From assembly GCA_947593615.1 (NCBI GenBank), contig CANQDR010000005.1, positions 23,696 through 87,695 on the forward strand: a stretch of 64,000 bases of DNA, read 5' to 3'. Both the position numbers and the translations under genes were made by a program. Position 1 is the stretch's first letter, and each line of letters starts with the position of its first letter. The notes under the pieces are model-generated. The model saw nothing but the letters and a program-made list of their open reading frames with translations. It made no database searches and was not told the origin of the DNA. The stretch comes from an uncultured Clostridia bacterium (lineage in GTDB: Bacteria; Bacillota; Clostridia; Oscillospirales; Acutalibacteraceae). This document shows, in pieces, positions 40,605-63,295 of the stretch.

Positions 40605-41738
40605 GTGTTTAAAATGGCAAGAAGGGGAGAAAACATAAGAAAGAGAAAAGACGGAAGATACGAAGCACGCTATAAATCGGGGTTTGATAATAACGGGATT
40701 CCTGTTTATAAATCAGTTTATGGCAAAACATATACAGAAGCTAAAAATAACAGGCTTAATTTTCTATTTGGAAATAAAAAAACAAAAGATAAAAACATAA
40801 TAACAATTAAGGATGTATCTTTACAATGGCTTGAAATTAAAAAATTAGAGGTAAAAAAATCCACCTATGCCAAATATTACGATACTGTATATAATCACAT
40901 TATCAAGAGTTTGGGAGGCATAAGATTAAACAATATAAATCAGACTGTTGTTAATAATTTTATAAAAGAAAAGTTTATTAATGGCAATTTGATAAATGAA
41001 AAACCATTAAAGAGCAAAACAATAAAAGGTATTATTAATATATTAAAGCAAATTCTAAAATTTGCAGAAAAACAATACAAATGTAAAAATCAAAGTTTTG
41101 ATTACGTTATTCCGAAAGATGAGTGTACCGAAATACAAACATTGTCACACGAGGAACAAACAAGGCTGATTAAATATCTTTTAAGTAATCTTGACAGAAA
41201 AAATTTAGCACTGTTGATTTGCATTAACACAGGATTGCGAATTGGTGAAATATGCGCTTTAAAGCATGGAAATGTAAATCAATACAGGTCTTGTATATGT
41301 GTAAGAAAAACAATGCAGAGAATTAAAAACACAATGGGAAATTCAGATTTCAAAACTATTATTAATATAGATGAACCGAAAAGCAAAACTTCAATAAGAG
41401 ATATACCTATAAAACAGTATCTTATTGATAAAATAAATAATTTTGGCGGGAATGAAAACGATTTTCTTTTAACAGGAAGCTGCAGTGAATATATAGAGCC
41501 AAGAACGTTGGAAAATCACTTTAAAAAGATATTAAAAACAACAAATATTAAAGAAGTAAAGTTCCACGCATTAAGGCATACATTTGCAACAAATATGATA
41601 GAATCAGGGTGCGATCCTAAAACATTAAGCGAATTATTAGGACACGCCAATGTACAATTAACATTAAAGACATATGTGCATTCATCATATGAGCTAAAAC
41701 AAAAAAGCATTGAAAAGTTGCCTGAATACTGTGCCTGA
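40605..41738 (+). CDS. Tyrosine recombinase / phage-type integrase
   Basis: LLICINTGLRIGEICALKHGNV, KFHALRHTFATNMIESGCDPKTLSELLGHANVQLTLKTYVH (R..HxxR..Y). Confidence 0.95.
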   Translation: MFKMARRGENIRKRKDGRYEARYKSGFDNNGIPVYKSVYGKTYTEAKNNRLNFLFGNKKTKDKNIITIKDVSLQWLEIKKLEVKKSTYAKYYDTVYNHIIKSLGGIRLNNINQTVVNNFIKEKFINGNLINEKPLKSKTIKGIINILKQILKFAEKQYKCKNQSFDYVIPKDECTEIQTLSHEEQTRLIKYLLSNLDRKNLALLICINTGLRIGEICALKHGNVNQYRSCICVRKTMQRIKNTMGNSDFKTIINIDEPKSKTSIRDIPIKQYLIDKINNFGGNENDFLLTGSCSEYIEPRTLENHFKKILKTTNIKEVKFHALRHTFATNMIESGCDPKTLSELLGHANVQLTLKTYVHSSYELKQKSIEKLPEYCA

Positions 41739-46587: not shown

Positions 46588-52267
<5,680 letters not shown>

Positions 52268-54621: not shown

Positions 54622-56376
54622 TTAATACCAACCTGCTTCTTTTACAAGTACCTTTTCACTCCAAGCCTTCTTTACAAGTACCTTTTCCGACCAAGCTTCT
54701 TTTACAAGCTTCTTTTCAGACCATGCATCCTTAACAAGAACTTTCCTCTCACCATATTCGGCTGGGTGGTTTACTTTCTTAGTTCCTACTTGTACGTCAC
54801 GCCATTCTGCATGATAAGAACATATATGCTTTTTACAGTTTGTGTTAGAACTATTACACTCAGGACAGTCAAAGGTATCTAAAGCGTGCTGATATTGATG
54901 TTCATCTACACAATCTGTTATATCTAAGCCTTTACCATCCGGTCCCTTACAACTCGGGTTATTGCAAATAGCTCTACATTGGTTCTCATAAATCGGGACT
55001 TCTTCAGTCCAAGCTGCCTTAGTTACATATTTTTCTGTTTTGTATTCGGCAGGATGGTTGACTGTCTTGTATTCCGCTGGGTGGTTAACCGTCTTATACT
55101 CAGCAGGGTGGTTTACCGTCTTATATACCGCCTCATGATAAGTCTTTCCTGCATGCGGGTCAGCCGTCGCACTCGTATTTTTCTTAGATTCGGAATTACT
55201 TCCTGTATTAGTATTATTCTTTGTAGTATTGCTACTCGTACTTGACTTATATACCGTGCTATTAGAAGCATTACTTGTGGTATTATTAACCGCCGAGCTT
55301 CCCTTATTAGTATTGGACGAAGTACCATTTGAATTGTTTACCGTTTTAACCGTATCACTGCTTACCTTAACAGTTTTGCCATCATCGGTCTTAACCTCAA
55401 CCTTACCTTCCTCATCAGCTTTAAGGGTGTTTCCCTCTTTGTCAACAATATTTCCTTTATTATCAACTTTAAGCTCGTTGTCTTTGATTGCATCTGATAC
55501 CGTTTTTTCAACCGTAGGACTTTCAGTTACAACATTTTGTACACCGTTATCAGAGTTTGCTAAAACTACGGCAGTAGCAACACCGCCACCGACAAGAGCT
55601 AATGCGCAAGCTGTTGCAATCGCCTTGACCTTTATTGTTGAAATAAGTCCTTTTCCTGTTGCTTTTACTGCTTTTTCAGCACCTTTTGATAAAACGCTTA
55701 TTCCGTTTTGACTTGCATTAGCAGGTAAAGAAATATTAATTTTTGGCACCTTAAGACTTTTTGATTGAGCTTCAAAAATTGAAGAAAACAGAGGAACGGA
55801 AGCAACAGAATGAAGTCTATCGTTATTTTGTGTTTCGTAATCTGTAATTGCCTTTTTCATTTTAGCTCTTGCAAGATTAAGTCTTGACATTACCGTTCCC
55901 TCAGGACATTCAAAAACCTCTGCAATCTCGGCAACAGACATATTATCAAAGTAATACATAATTACAGTTTGATATTGGAAAGCCGATAAAGCATTTCCCA
56001 TAAGCTGTAAAATAATCTCTCTTTTTTCGCTCTTCTTTATGTATTCCTCGGGTAACATAAGTTCGTCAGTTTCCATAATTTCTCCAATTTCTTCAAAATC
56101 AGAATGTTGTTCAGCTTTGTTCTTAAAAAAATCCTTACTTTTATTTACCGCTATCTTTTTTATCCAACTACTGAATTTGTCGTTTTCTGCAAGAGTGTCA
56201 AGCTTTAAAAAAGCAGTTAAATAGGTATCCTGCATAATATCCTTTGCATTATCTTCATTATTAAGCAAAGACATACAGGTAAACCATACTTCCTTTTTTG
56301 TAAGCTCGTACAGCTTATCAAAAGAATGTTCATTTCCCTTTTTTGCGTTTGTAACAAGTTTTTCTATTTTACTCAT
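54622..56376 (-). CDS. ECF-type RNA polymerase sigma factor fused to a TM helix and extracytoplasmic repeat/Cys-rich domain
   Basis: Sigma-70 r2 (NNEDNAKDIMQDTYLTAFLKL) and r4 (YFDNMSVAEIAEVFECPEGTVMSRLNLARAKMK); TM IATACALALVGGGVATAVVLA; C-term NHPAEYKTV and KVLVKEAWSEK repeats. Confidence 0.88.
   Translation of the reverse strand: MSKIEKLVTNAKKGNEHSFDKLYELTKKEVWFTCMSLLNNEDNAKDIMQDTYLTAFLKLDTLAENDKFSSWIKKIAVNKSKDFFKNKAEQHSDFEEIGEIMETDELMLPEEYIKKSEKREIILQLMGNALSAFQYQTVIMYYFDNMSVAEIAEVFECPEGTVMSRLNLARAKMKKAITDYETQNNDRLHSVASVPLFSSIFEAQSKSLKVPKINISLPANASQNGISVLSKGAEKAVKATGKGLISTIKVKAIATACALALVGGGVATAVVLANSDNGVQNVVTESPTVEKTVSDAIKDNELKVDNKGNIVDKEGNTLKADEEGKVEVKTDDGKTVKVSSDTVKTVNNSNGTSSNTNKGSSAVNNTTSNASNSTVYKSSTSSNTTKNNTNTGSNSESKKNTSATADPHAGKTYHEAVYKTVNHPAEYKTVNHPAEYKTVNHPAEYKTEKYVTKAAWTEEVPIYENQCRAICNNPSCKGPDGKGLDITDCVDEHQYQHALDTFDCPECNSSNTNCKKHICSYHAEWRDVQVGTKKVNHPAEYGERKVLVKDAWSEKKLVKEAWSEKVLVKKAWSEKVLVKEAGWY
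54630..54740 (-). repeat. Coding repeat KxLVKxAWSEK (about 4 units)
   Basis: ctttacaagtaccttttc(c/a)gaccaagc repeats. Confidence 0.8.
55035..55140 (-). repeat. Coding repeat YKTVNHPAE, 27-bp units
   Basis: VYKTVNHPAEYKTVNHPAEYKTVNHPAEYKTEKY. Confidence 0.85.
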
Positions 56377-56390
56377 TATTTATCCTCCTT

Positions 56391-56479
56391 GGTATTGTAA
56401 AAATTTTCCGTATCTAATAATAAGACGATTCAAAAAGCCGTTTCATTTAATTTTTTGACAAATTTTTTAAAAAATTTTA
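56391..56479 (-). promoter_or_regulatory. Conserved promoter/leader, copy 1 (upstream of sigma gene)
   Basis: - strand aaattttttaaaaaatttgtcaaaaaattaaatgaaacggctttttgaatCGTCttattattagatacgg; near-identical to 57081..57180. Confidence 0.65.
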
Positions 56480-56494: not shown

Positions 56495-57079
56495 TTACTC
56501 AAATAATGATTCAAATAAACTGACAGCTTCGTTTTTAGCAGAAAGATCATAAAGGTTCAGTGTTAGCACTGTATTTTCTATACAGCAGATTGCTAAATAG
56601 TACTCATCTTTCCTCTGGGAAGTGTGATAGAAATAATTGTTACCGATTTTATTTGTTATAGCAAAATCATCTTTATTTTCATAGATAAACGATTTCGTTT
56701 CATTGTCATATGAATATTCGTAATACTTATCTTCTGCCGTCCAAATAGTATGGTTATAAAACGCAACAGCATTTTCTTTAGCAATGTAATATTTGTAATC
56801 AATAGTAAATTCTTTTTCACCGTCTTTACTATAATACTTACACAATTCTAATGACCTTAATATTCCATCTACGTCACCTGAATCGCCATAACTGACAGGC
56901 AAACTATTTGAAACGGCAATTTCTAAAAATTCTTGTTCTGTGATTTGCTTTACAGTCTTAGTATCAGTTACTGTCGTTTTAGTCGTGCTATCCTCACTGT
57001 TACCACTACTTGAGCAACCCGCAAATAAAAATAAAATCGTTGCTGACAACAACAAACTTGCTAATTTTTTTCTGTCCAT
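56495..57079 (-). CDS. Lipoprotein of unknown function
   Basis: MDRKKLASLLLSATILFLFAGCSSS lipobox; start behind aggaggataaaa. Confidence 0.75.
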   Translation of the reverse strand: MDRKKLASLLLSATILFLFAGCSSSGNSEDSTTKTTVTDTKTVKQITEQEFLEIAVSNSLPVSYGDSGDVDGILRSLELCKYYSKDGEKEFTIDYKYYIAKENAVAFYNHTIWTAEDKYYEYSYDNETKSFIYENKDDFAITNKIGNNYFYHTSQRKDEYYLAICCIENTVLTLNLYDLSAKNEAVSLFESLFE

Positions 57080-57080
57080 T

Positions 57081-57180
57081 TTTATCCTCCTGTATGTTGT
57101 AAATTTTTCCATCTAATAATAAGACGATTAAAAAATTCATTTCATTTAATTTTTAGACAAATTTTTTAAAAAATTTTTTA
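57081..57180 (-). promoter_or_regulatory. Conserved promoter/leader, copy 2 (upstream of lipoprotein gene)
   Basis: - strand aaattttttaaaaaatttgtctaaaaattaaatgaaatgaattttttaatCGTCttattattagatgg. Confidence 0.65.
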
Positions 57181-57901: not shown

Positions 57902-58309
57902 TTAATTCTCGTCTGCTTTTCTTTCTGTACGGTTCGGTGTGATAAACCAAGCCTGTTTTTTGTTCGGCCATTTGAAATTGAGATTTTTCAAGATTTCTTT
58001 ATGTTCTCTTGTATTGCCTGAAACCCATATCCAAGAACCGCAAATTTCAACATCAATACCTTTTAGCTTTGTAAGCACATCGATTATATGTATAAATTCT
58101 TGTGGGGTTTCGGTGGTTTCTTTGGTGTAGGTTTCGCCCTCTGAATTTGTATGAACATTTTTTAAGCGTTCCCACATTTGCTCATATTCATTTTGCATAT
58201 TCTTAAAGACTTCTTCATCTCCGCCTAAATCGGGGTGCAATTTCATAGCAAGTTTTCTGTATTCTTTTTTGAGTTCTTCGGCTGTTTTACAATTCTGAAA
58301 ATATTTCAT
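57902..58309 (-). CDS. J-domain (DnaJ-like) protein
   Basis: EELKKEYRKLAMKLHPDLGGDEEVFKNMQNEYEQM (HPD motif). Confidence 0.85.
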   Translation of the reverse strand: MKYFQNCKTAEELKKEYRKLAMKLHPDLGGDEEVFKNMQNEYEQMWERLKNVHTNSEGETYTKETTETPQEFIHIIDVLTKLKGIDVEICGSWIWVSGNTREHKEILKNLNFKWPNKKQAWFITPNRTERKADEN

Positions 58310-58882: not shown

Positions 58883-59680
58883 TTGGAGGCATTTTATATG
58901 CAAAAAATTTCAAATTATAAGAAGAACAAGAAACAAGACAGTAACGAGGACATTCGCCGAATGACTTGGAGCGTTGCAGCTATTGGCATAACCATAATGA
59001 TTATGGTTCTGTTTATTTCCCTCAGAAACATTTCTGAACTTTCCTTACAAGAACTAAACCGACAAATTCCGCATATTTTTTACTATTTAGCATTTTGTTT
59101 AATTGTGTTTGGTCTTTCAGCGATTATTACATTTACCTTGTTTAAATGTTTGGACAGTAAAACATTGAAAACATCAATTCATTTGCTTTCTAATAAAATT
59201 AATAACCGATTAATTGCTAAAAACAGTAATTCTATTCGGCCTTGTCTGCGTTCATTTCTTTATGAGTTGCTCACTCGTAACAATGATATGCTGCAACTAA
59301 ATCTCGGTCAGGATCAATCGTGCCTATTTGTAAACGGTGCTGATGTTCGTAAAAAATGTGTGTTTTACAGATTCGGTCTGATAACAACCAAACCTCAATA
59401 TGAGGATAAGCAGTTAAGGCAGATTATACAGGGATATATAAGCTCTGAATTGAATGATTACGGCATTTTTGGTTTATCACCTATATACAAGAGCATAACA
59501 ACTCAATGCTATTCTGTATATTTGGACAGATGTTTTTATGATGAAAATAACAGCATACTTGTGTTTGACTTGCTTTATATCTGTACAGAACAATCAGCAA
59601 ACTACTTTAATCAAGCTGTTGTAAGAGATACAGACAAGCCAAAAGCAGAAAAGACGGTGTTTGATGATGAAATCATATGA
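58883..59680 (+). CDS. Two-TM conserved mobile-element protein of unknown function
   Basis: Two N-terminal TM helices; start codon of the downstream FtsK-like gene overlaps its 3' end. Confidence 0.6.
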   Translation: MEAFYMQKISNYKKNKKQDSNEDIRRMTWSVAAIGITIMIMVLFISLRNISELSLQELNRQIPHIFYYLAFCLIVFGLSAIITFTLFKCLDSKTLKTSIHLLSNKINNRLIAKNSNSIRPCLRSFLYELLTRNNDMLQLNLGQDQSCLFVNGADVRKKCVFYRFGLITTKPQYEDKQLRQIIQGYISSELNDYGIFGLSPIYKSITTQCYSVYLDRCFYDENNSILVFDLLYICTEQSANYFNQAVVRDTDKPKAEKTVFDDEII

Positions 59681-60383
59681 TAATACGCTTGTAGTAGGTG
59701 TAAGTCAATTTGGACTTGATAACAATATTATACTGCCTGTTAAGATTGACTTTTCGTCAGTACCGCATTTAATAATTGTCGCTCCAAGCGGCAGTGGAAA
59801 AACTTACTTATTAACATTCCTGTTAGGGCAAATAGCAAAGAAGCCTGTCAAATTGATTTTGGCAGACTTCAAAGGTATTGACTTTACAGAATTTGACGGC
59901 TGTAAAGACTATTACAAACATTCTGATATTGCAAAGGCTTTAGATTATGTGTTTGAGGAACTCCAAAAACGTATGGAAGAACCAAAGAAAGATAATCAAC
60001 CGATTTACTTTTGCGTTGATGAGTGGTCGGGATTTCTTTGTTCTTTAACTACTAAAAAAGAACAAGACAGCTTTAAACAAAAAATGGCTTCAATTTTAAT
60101 GTTGGGGCGTGGTGTAAACATATTTGTTATAATGTCACTGCAAAGAGCCGATTCAGCCTATATTACAGGTCGCGACAATTTTGGAAATGCTGTTGGTTTA
60201 GGTGCGTTAAGCAAAGAAAGCATAGCCATGTTATTTAATGATGATAAAGAGCTTATACACCCAAAGATAAGAGGAAAAGGCTATCTGAAAACAGACGGTA
60301 AATCACTTTCTGAAATTGTTGTGCCTAAAATTCGTGATATAGCAAAATTAAAGGAAATAATTAAAACGGCTTTATTAAAATAG
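59661..60383 (+). CDS. FtsK/SpoIIIE-domain ATPase, TcpA-like conjugation coupling protein
   Basis: Walker A VAPSGSGKTYLL; LILADFKGIDF; Walker B-like IYFCVDEWSGFL. Confidence 0.85.
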   Translation: MMMKSYDNTLVVGVSQFGLDNNIILPVKIDFSSVPHLIIVAPSGSGKTYLLTFLLGQIAKKPVKLILADFKGIDFTEFDGCKDYYKHSDIAKALDYVFEELQKRMEEPKKDNQPIYFCVDEWSGFLCSLTTKKEQDSFKQKMASILMLGRGVNIFVIMSLQRADSAYITGRDNFGNAVGLGALSKESIAMLFNDDKELIHPKIRGKGYLKTDGKSLSEIVVPKIRDIAKLKEIIKTALLK

Positions 60384-60733: not shown

Positions 60734-61417
60734 ATGCAAAAAAATGCATATGAGTATGTAGGTGCAAGAATAAAAAAAATAAGGGGTGAAGTATCACAAA
60801 AAAACTTTTTGAAGAAGTTGGAAATTTACGATATTTTGAATTGCACCACTTTGTCAAAAATTGAAAATAATCAAATACCACCACCAATGAATTTATTGGT
60901 CGTAATCAGTACTCACTATTCTATGACTATGGACGAAATTGCGTTTGGAAATGTTTTGTCGGAAGTTAGTGATTTTAGATTGATATATTCAAAGTTAAAT
61001 GAGGTAGATAAGAATATGCTCATTAAGGTTTGCTTAAAGGTTGCAGAACAATTCGAAAAAGATAACACTTTTGATTATAATTCTGAAGATGATTTTTCTG
61101 TAAAAAAACTTGATTGGCAAATTCGGCTGGCAGAAATTCGTAGGTTACTAAGAATGAGTAATGATGAATTCAAAGCAAAAATTGGCAAAAGCGTGAAAAC
61201 AGCATATTACCACGAAAACTGCGAAGAACTTCCGCCTTACAAGTATTGCTGTCAATTCGCATCAGTTGCAAATGTTTCGCTTGACTACATATTTCACGGC
61301 ACATTTTGTTGTTATCCATTGATTTTATCAGATGTTCTTTATGAATACAATTTTGATAAGCAAAAACAAATTATTTTACAATGGGCAGAAGTCGCTAAAA
61401 AAGTCATGATAAAATAA
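60734..61417 (+). CDS. Helix-turn-helix (XRE-like) regulator
   Basis: VGARIKKIRGEVSQKNFLKKLEIYD...LSKIENNQIPPPMNLLVVIS. Confidence 0.65.
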   Translation: MQKNAYEYVGARIKKIRGEVSQKNFLKKLEIYDILNCTTLSKIENNQIPPPMNLLVVISTHYSMTMDEIAFGNVLSEVSDFRLIYSKLNEVDKNMLIKVCLKVAEQFEKDNTFDYNSEDDFSVKKLDWQIRLAEIRRLLRMSNDEFKAKIGKSVKTAYYHENCEELPPYKYCCQFASVANVSLDYIFHGTFCCYPLILSDVLYEYNFDKQKQIILQWAEVAKKVMIK

Positions 61418-62008: not shown

Positions 62009-63295
62009 ATGAATAAAGAATTATTAGTCGGCGTTGATGAGTTTAGCCTTGTACTTTTTTCACAATTTCCAGTTGATAGTGAAGGCTGGTTGCAATCAGC
62101 TTATGTTATTATAAATGAATTTATTGGCTTATCAAAAATTGAAGTTCTGTTTGGTAAGGTAACCGAAATGTACGAGAAAAAGCCTGCGGCTTATTCACAG
62201 GCATTTACTATTGAAAATGTACCGTGGTATTTCGCTATAGCAGTCCACGAATATTTTCCGCATATGGGAATTTTGATTAAGTTCTCTGCCGAAGCTTGGG
62301 CAAACTATCAGAAAGCATATTTAGAACAATACAATCAAACTATGAACATTGCAGTCTTTTTAAAAATAATCGAAAGTCCTATTTATCAATACAGGTTAAG
62401 CAGAATTGATTTCACGGCTGATTACAAGAATTACGGTTATTTGTCACCGCACTACATATATAACAAGCTGTTAGACGAAAATTATCATATTGAAGACCAT
62501 AACGGAAGAACAGCCCAAAAAAAGTTATCTGCATTGCAGAATGACTTTGAAACGAATACCTTTTATGTTGGCTCTCGTAAGGAGAACAGCAAATTACTTT
62601 TGCGTGTCTATGATAAAAAGCGTGAGCAGACTTCGCAAAATGGATTTCGTCTTGATGAAGCATTGAACTGTAACAGTTGGACAAGATTTGAAGCTTCATT
62701 CAAAGGTGATTATGCTCATCAAATAACTGAACAGCTTGTAAATGGTGTAAGTAGTGAGATTGAATTATCTCAATTTATAGCAAGTAAAATATGCGACAAA
62801 TACCGTTTTGTAGATAACTCCACAGGCGAATATACATCGTTTACAAAAGATTTATTGTTTATAGTTGATAACAGTACTTACTCAGCATTACGCTCTGAAA
62901 GCCCGAAAAATAACAGCCTCAGTAAATCAATAGCACATATAATTAAAGGAAGCGGTCTATATCCGCTTTTATATAAGATTGGGCAAATATGGAACAAACA
63001 AACCGAAACCGAATTTCTCGAATTTATCTACCAAATTTACGAAACTTATTATAAACAAGAAATGCAACGAAGCCTACAACTTAATAGTTGGATAAAGAAG
63101 AATTATTCAAGCCTTTCAAAGAAGAAATTATCAGATTGTTTTATAGGTGAAAGTTTAAGTAAGTATGATATTTCCAAACTTTCAAAGCAACCTCAACAAA
63201 TATTTAACCTAAAAAAATTAGATACCGAAACTTTTAATTATGATAAAGAAATATCAGACGAAGAATTTAATAAATTATTATACGAGGAGTTTTAA
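62009..63295 (+). CDS. Rep_trans-family replication initiator / relaxase
   Basis: SRIDFTADYKNYG, NTFYVGSRKENSKLLLRVYDKKREQ, WTRFEASFKGDYA typical of RCR initiators (Tn916 Orf20-like). Confidence 0.85.
   Translation: MNKELLVGVDEFSLVLFSQFPVDSEGWLQSAYVIINEFIGLSKIEVLFGKVTEMYEKKPAAYSQAFTIENVPWYFAIAVHEYFPHMGILIKFSAEAWANYQKAYLEQYNQTMNIAVFLKIIESPIYQYRLSRIDFTADYKNYGYLSPHYIYNKLLDENYHIEDHNGRTAQKKLSALQNDFETNTFYVGSRKENSKLLLRVYDKKREQTSQNGFRLDEALNCNSWTRFEASFKGDYAHQITEQLVNGVSSEIELSQFIASKICDKYRFVDNSTGEYTSFTKDLLFIVDNSTYSALRSESPKNNSLSKSIAHIIKGSGLYPLLYKIGQIWNKQTETEFLEFIYQIYETYYKQEMQRSLQLNSWIKKNYSSLSKKKLSDCFIGESLSKYDISKLSKQPQQIFNLKKLDTETFNYDKEISDEEFNKLLYEEF

Follow-up and report, generated by a model that had tools for sequence, protein, structure and literature searches.

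Membrane-tethered ECF sigma factors have, to our knowledge, been little studied. In the fused transmembrane (TM) ECF sigma factor IutY, release by regulated proteolysis has been shown, and activation by proteolysis has been proposed for the fused TM-ECFs of groups ECF48, ECF52 and ECF53 (PMC8999054). Signal peptidase is the site-1 protease for the anti-sigma factor RsiP (PMC8844934). Among mobile elements, those that combine MobT/Rep_trans relaxases with FtsK-like coupling proteins form a described class of mobilizable elements (PMC5704250). At the locus analysed here, in a stretch of 64,000 nucleotides of DNA from a clostridial gut bacterium (the window), a putative switch, its anchor and a candidate receptor are joined in one gene that appears to travel with such an element. 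Architectures of this class are already known in kind; against the libraries searched, the ectodomain is new.

Results

A single gene for a sigma factor, a membrane anchor and an ectodomain

A sequence-only reading of the window had proposed that one ORF links ECF regions 2 and 4 to a TM helix, a stalk and a C-terminal domain. The frame of 584 aa and its coordinates were confirmed exactly, with an AAGGAGG ribosome-binding site ahead of the ATG at 56376, and the intact ORF, the Pfam matches and hydropathy bore out the proposed order of parts:

54622..56376 (-), whole fused gene, 584 aa (intact ORF and homologs)
56116..56313 (-), sigma-70 region 2, residues 22-87 (Pfam PF04542)
55858..55971 (-), sigma-70 region 4, residues 136-173 (Pfam PF08281)
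55639..55830 (-), cytoplasmic juxtamembrane segment, residues 183-246 (sequence, other TM-ECFs and alignment)
55558..55638 (-), TM helix with GGG motif, residues 247-273 (hydropathy scan and alignment)
55342..55557 (-), membrane-proximal extracellular module, residues 274-345 (read from translations)
55147..55341 (-), Asn/Ser/Thr-rich stalk, residues 346-410 (alignment)
54967..55146 (-), ectodomain, N-terminal repeat arm, residues 411-470 (modelled as strands by AF2)
54817..54966 (-), Cys/His core, residues 471-520, with C471, C476 and H497 (invariant columns of alignment A3)
54625..54816 (-), C-terminal repeat arm with KVLVKEAWSEK repeats, residues 521-584 (AF2 model)

Sigma70_r2 scored 36.5 bits (Pfam cut-off 24) and Sigma70_r4_2 40.2 bits (cut-off 25.7), while the NCBIfam model TIGR02937 (sigma70-ECF) gave 82.5 bits with the 584-aa protein. 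The solved structure nearest to the sigma part was SigW (E 8e-20). Regions 2 and 4 lie within about 180 residues, without region 1.1 or 3, which is the arrangement of an ECF sigma factor. An HSVASVPLF motif follows region 4 directly, in the juxtamembrane segment. This segment has no Cys and is thus without a ZAS-type zinc motif. The hydropathy scan gave a single TM helix, in the 244-273 region, C-terminal to the sigma part within the one protein. Beyond the helix, the membrane-proximal module is also recognizable in four stand-alone lipoproteins (L095, L098, L152 and L153), and the low-complexity stalk is little conserved (12-31% versus orthologs). The NHPAEYKTV repeats, the Cys/His segment and the KVLVKEAWSEK repeats were all present in the translation as claimed. 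No anti-sigma gene adjoins, as had also been stated: none of the neighbours scored as an anti-sigma factor in Pfam, and no anti-sigma domain was matched in the extension of the 584-aa protein or in the neighbouring genes.

The fusion in related genomes

A homolog in a Clostridia MAG (L040) was the only relative that a peptide-pattern scan of the species-genome collection returned; it aligned over residues 3-584, its best segment being 44% identical. Searching the genus directly yielded L091, L092 and L093 and pieces in L094, L096 and L097, and a profile census of the genus added L148 and L151. Full-length sigma-TM-ectodomain fusions are encoded by L091, L093, L148 and L151; L092 ends early, inside the stalk, and L094, L096 and L097 are fragments at contig ends. 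As far as the contigs allow, homologs in six further genomes of the genus retain the arrangement. The search for homologs of the same architecture found sigma and TM helix in one frame several times, L040 being an example, and no stop separates the two parts in L040 or in the full-length homologs. Architecture and homologs together support a single-protein, TM-tethered ECF. Given the full-length match to L040 and the full-length orthologs, the fusion is real and no accident of assembly.

The same bacterial family has about 30 more TM-helix ECFs whose ectodomains are of other kinds, LRR_5 in several cases, and many of the family's other TM-ECFs have a K-L-Y-G-x-A-P-x-P-L-like motif right after region 4. 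At one of these loci (L057 4506-8848), the two genes after a TM-ECF with an LRR ectodomain encode products that match this ectodomain.

The mobile element

The proposal that the gene is carried on a mobile element was examined through the genes at 57.9-64.0 kb of the window:

57902..58309 (-), DnaJ-domain protein, element gene (Pfam; homologs beside the sigma gene in L094 and L148)
59661..60383 (+), FtsK/HerA-like ATPase, candidate coupling protein (Pfam)
60734..61417 (+), HTH_3 regulator, element gene (Pfam)
62009..63295 (+), Rep_trans (MobT-type) candidate relaxase (PF02486, E 2.4e-16)

The gene order DnaJ-FtsK-Rep is common to the window, L094 and L148, and an integrase is present in L094 and L148. 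In L094/L101 and in the complete genome G578, the sigma gene lies at one end of the element and a tyrosine integrase at the other; in G578, about 10.8 kb lie between direct repeats of 16 bp at a tRNA-Leu gene (3' end). In L151 the sigma gene has different neighbours, a serine recombinase among them. The element of the window reaches the end of the contig, its far end lying beyond the sequence. Its near end was looked for by empty-site comparison at the ANTAR gene. Because the gene upstream of the ANTAR gene differs between congeners, this end could be narrowed down only to about 54.1-54.6 kb; for an att-like end near 54.3 kb, the source assembly contained no second copy. Carriage on a mobile element is clear in the relatives, and the window has the same gene order in an element that runs off the contig. 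We conclude that this version of the sigma gene in all probability sits at one end of an integrative element of MobT/Rep_trans type.

Elsewhere in the window, a second tyrosine integrase (40605-41738, +), related to that of the element, is followed by genes for a zinc-ribbon membrane protein and a lipoprotein, and possibly belongs to another small element. At 48215-52267 (-), one ORF of 1350 aa runs without a stop from carB into dapF-like sequence, as a fusion or a sequencing effect.

Distribution of the ectodomain

The profile census found the ectodomain in 22 of the 161 genomes of the genus. It was found in none of 398 other genomes of the phylum, in none of 393 other genomes of the order (searched with a narrower, 3-row model), and in no plasmid or phage record and no viral contig. 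Within the searches made, it was found only in this genus and in the Clostridia MAG, and the source genome has a single copy. Most copies are secreted proteins or lipoproteins, not sigma factors, and several stand-alone copies join a lipoprotein-like signal sequence to the sigma protein's membrane-proximal module. Of the 21 non-sigma copies examined, nine have two or more of the gene types adhesin (TED), pilin and sortase nearby, and another two have a single one; the Pfam check of this context covered one locus. In 355 kb of control loci these queries gave no match, and neither did they at the eight sigma loci, some of which are short contigs. The C-terminal domain is a family of its own, which occurs chiefly in stand-alone secreted proteins or lipoproteins, many of them encoded beside pilus and sortase genes.

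Two loci of the complete genome G578 (L149 and L150) are near-copies of one pilus/sortase locus, in which the C-terminal domains of the lipoproteins have diverged. In G550, the element integrase has as its neighbour a secreted protein of fibronectin type III (L101 1260-2636, -), whose ectodomain belongs to the subtype of the local sigma copies.

A domain that is mostly found in stand-alone lipoproteins or secreted proteins might serve for surface display or adhesion, and not as a sensor, in the sigma protein, the sigma factor being active while tethered or after constitutive cleavage and regulated by its expression only. The alignment has a perfect LAGC lipobox at the TM end in L093, L094, L148 and L151, a hint that some orthologs could be substrates of signal peptidase II, and routine cleavage there would suit this explanation. 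However, the window protein, L040 and L091 lack a lipobox, and the sigma factor is in frame with the domain in several separate homologs, a link that pure display does not need. We consider this explanation rather unlikely.

The Cys/His core and the exchange of parts

The Cys/His-rich segment itself was upheld: in alignment A3 (10 rows), compared with the two Cys and two His in set spacing of a C2H2-type zinc finger, two Cys and one His of the core are invariant and a second His is variable. The AF2 model of the ectodomain (three rows; mean pLDDT 75.7, pTM 0.30) predicts strands for the two arms and, for the core or tip, where confidence is low, a short helix. A PDB fold search with this model returned nothing at E <= 0.001, and the ectodomain of the window copy had no meaningful match in Pfam. 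Other rows of A3 gave scattered and mostly weak Pfam matches of zinc-binding type, and the PDB profile matches of the ectodomain to zinc fingers covered short stretches only. That the core might bind zinc is a guess from the motif.

The core is the counterpart of a tip that varies among other copies. In three within-genome pairs, the scaffold is 92-94% identical in amino acids and the C-terminal domain 61-73%; a scaffold kept while this domain diverges is as would be expected of a recognition part. Domain-wise identity identified chimeras, the sigma parts of L148 and L151 being 55% identical and their juxtamembrane segments 100%. Similarly, two copies in G550 are identical over 461 nt, spanning the juxtamembrane segment, the TM helix and the proximal part, and diverge beyond. 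In L040, the tip of the sigma protein and that encoded by the next gene share 147 identical nt (49 codons) between diverged flanks. Between copies, sigma part and ectodomain have been exchanged separately. A single origin of the sigma-linked ectodomains was unsupported, as the sigma copies do not form one clade in the domain tree; the tree places the window copy without support. A general match between TM-ECF ectodomains and a neighbouring secreted protein was rejected (2 of 24 loci).

A promoter-like block shared with a lipoprotein gene

Upstream of the sigma gene lies a putative promoter element that recurs at the neighbouring gene:

56413..56430 (-), putative promoter -10 block AATCGTCTTATTATTAGA, upstream of the sigma gene (exact motif search)
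57112..57129 (-), second exact copy of AATCGTCTTATTATTAGA, upstream of the lipoprotein gene (exact motif search)
56495..57079 (-), lipoprotein gene with the same upstream block (ORF; no Pfam family)

Because the second copy overlaps an ATG at 57112, the ATG at 57079 is the likelier start of the lipoprotein. The 18-bp block occurs exactly twice in the 2.2 Mb genome, at these two genes, and both copies could stem from one local duplication. Genome-wide, matches with 3 mismatches reached only the level of a reversed-pattern control. An ECF-like promoter pattern, TGAACC-N16-CGTCTA, stands at the same position upstream of L091 and L093, with similar sequence in L094 and L148; in its -35 position, the window promoter differs from those of the orthologs.

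A block common to the two genes is also what would be seen if the lipoprotein controlled the tethered sigma factor, the more general form of this explanation being a separate anti-sigma factor encoded elsewhere. The lipoprotein would, however, lie outside the membrane, no clear relative of it was seen beside other sigma copies, and Pfam detected no anti-sigma domain nearby. Control by such a separate regulator is very doubtful.

The genome-wide search bears equally on sensing of polysaccharides or cellulosomes in the manner of SigI/RsgI, in which the ectodomain would bind a plant polymer and the sigma factor would turn on degradative genes. The genome has 39 dockerin matches and 4 cohesin matches, two of them over the cut-off, and the partner gene in L040, which follows the sigma gene, encodes a secreted dockerin protein. 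Against this, neither in the protein nor in the adjacent genes did Pfam match an RsgI anti-sigma domain or a carbohydrate-binding ectodomain, matches to the promoter-like block in the rest of the genome stay at the level of the control, and the domain family accompanies pilus/sortase loci more often than dockerins. We hold polysaccharide sensing to be quite improbable; a cellulosome-wide regulon was unsupported by the motif search. Three of the 39 Dockerin_1 matches lie in secreted proteins of the window, at about 3283, 9666 and 37579 (-).

Discussion

The sequence shows the architecture, its setting in an element, the domain family, the variable tip and the doubled promoter-like block. These are consistent with a transmembrane transcription switch made of one component, which an integrative mobilizable element of MobT type would carry as cargo at one of its ends. 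We favour this reading, by a small measure, as the probable one. The protein's own TM helix would keep the sigma part at the inner side of the membrane. On the outer side, the stalk would bear a domain of two strand arms, and its Cys/His tip would contact a ligand or a surface protein acting as partner. Engagement or cutting of the ectodomain would lead to cleavage of the TM anchor, perhaps in two steps, by an enzyme like signal peptidase and after it an intramembrane protease. The freed sigma factor would act on a small local regulon, consisting of the sigma gene itself and the neighbouring lipoprotein gene. We infer topology and sensing, as well as proteolysis and autoregulation; tethering, release and autoregulation are suggested by the architecture and by the precedents of IutY, ECF48/52/53 and RsiP. 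An AF2 model of residues 1-290 (two-row alignment) had a pLDDT of 37 and was unusable, leaving inhibition of the sigma factor in cis without structural support. Lipobox-coupled release was not adopted for the window protein, as its TM helix has no lipobox Cys.

What the switch might respond to could be a co-resident conjugative element or a neighbouring cell, the element's sigma factor detecting conjugation or surface activity. Signals from helper elements are believed to set the time at which integrative mobilizable elements (IMEs) excise (PMC5704250). The ectodomain would then imitate, or pair with, the surface lipoproteins encoded beside the pilus genes of such elements, and the varying tip would set specificity. 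This more specific proposal strikes us as unlikely. Under the one-component switch, if the ectodomain is a receptor, mobilizable elements could time the expression of their own genes by the outside of the cell, and a new extracellular domain family would gain a function to test.

The locus differs from a canonical ECF/anti-sigma pair in that no anti-sigma gene adjoins, and from SigI/RsgI in having, by Pfam, neither an RsgI domain nor a carbohydrate-binding ectodomain. Like IutY of Pseudomonas putida (ECF243), it fuses the sigma factor to a membrane-bound regulatory part, but IutY belongs to iron-starvation cell-surface signalling in a Gram-negative bacterium, a context that the window locus lacks (PMC8999054). 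It shares with the actinobacterial ECF48, ECF52 (SCO4117) and ECF53 the order ECF sigma, TM helix and extracytoplasmic part in one protein; those have a ZAS-like zinc-finger segment in the extension, whereas the juxtamembrane segment here has no Cys (PMC8999054). The ectodomain is also unrelated to theirs, the host is a Firmicute, and the gene is placed on a putative integrative element. Closer by, TM-ECFs of the same family (L011, L015, L018, L060, L074 and others) have a sigma part, a related motif after region 4, one or more TM segments and a large ectodomain, but that ectodomain is different (LRR_5 or unassigned), and no Rep_trans element was seen beside the family's TM-ECF loci examined. 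The element, putatively mobilizable, has a Rep_trans relaxase and an FtsK-like ATPase in common with the MobT/TcpA integrative mobilizable elements, as well as a tyrosine integrase and a tRNA attachment site that are seen in relatives; unlike those elements, it carries a membrane sigma factor as cargo (PMC5704250).
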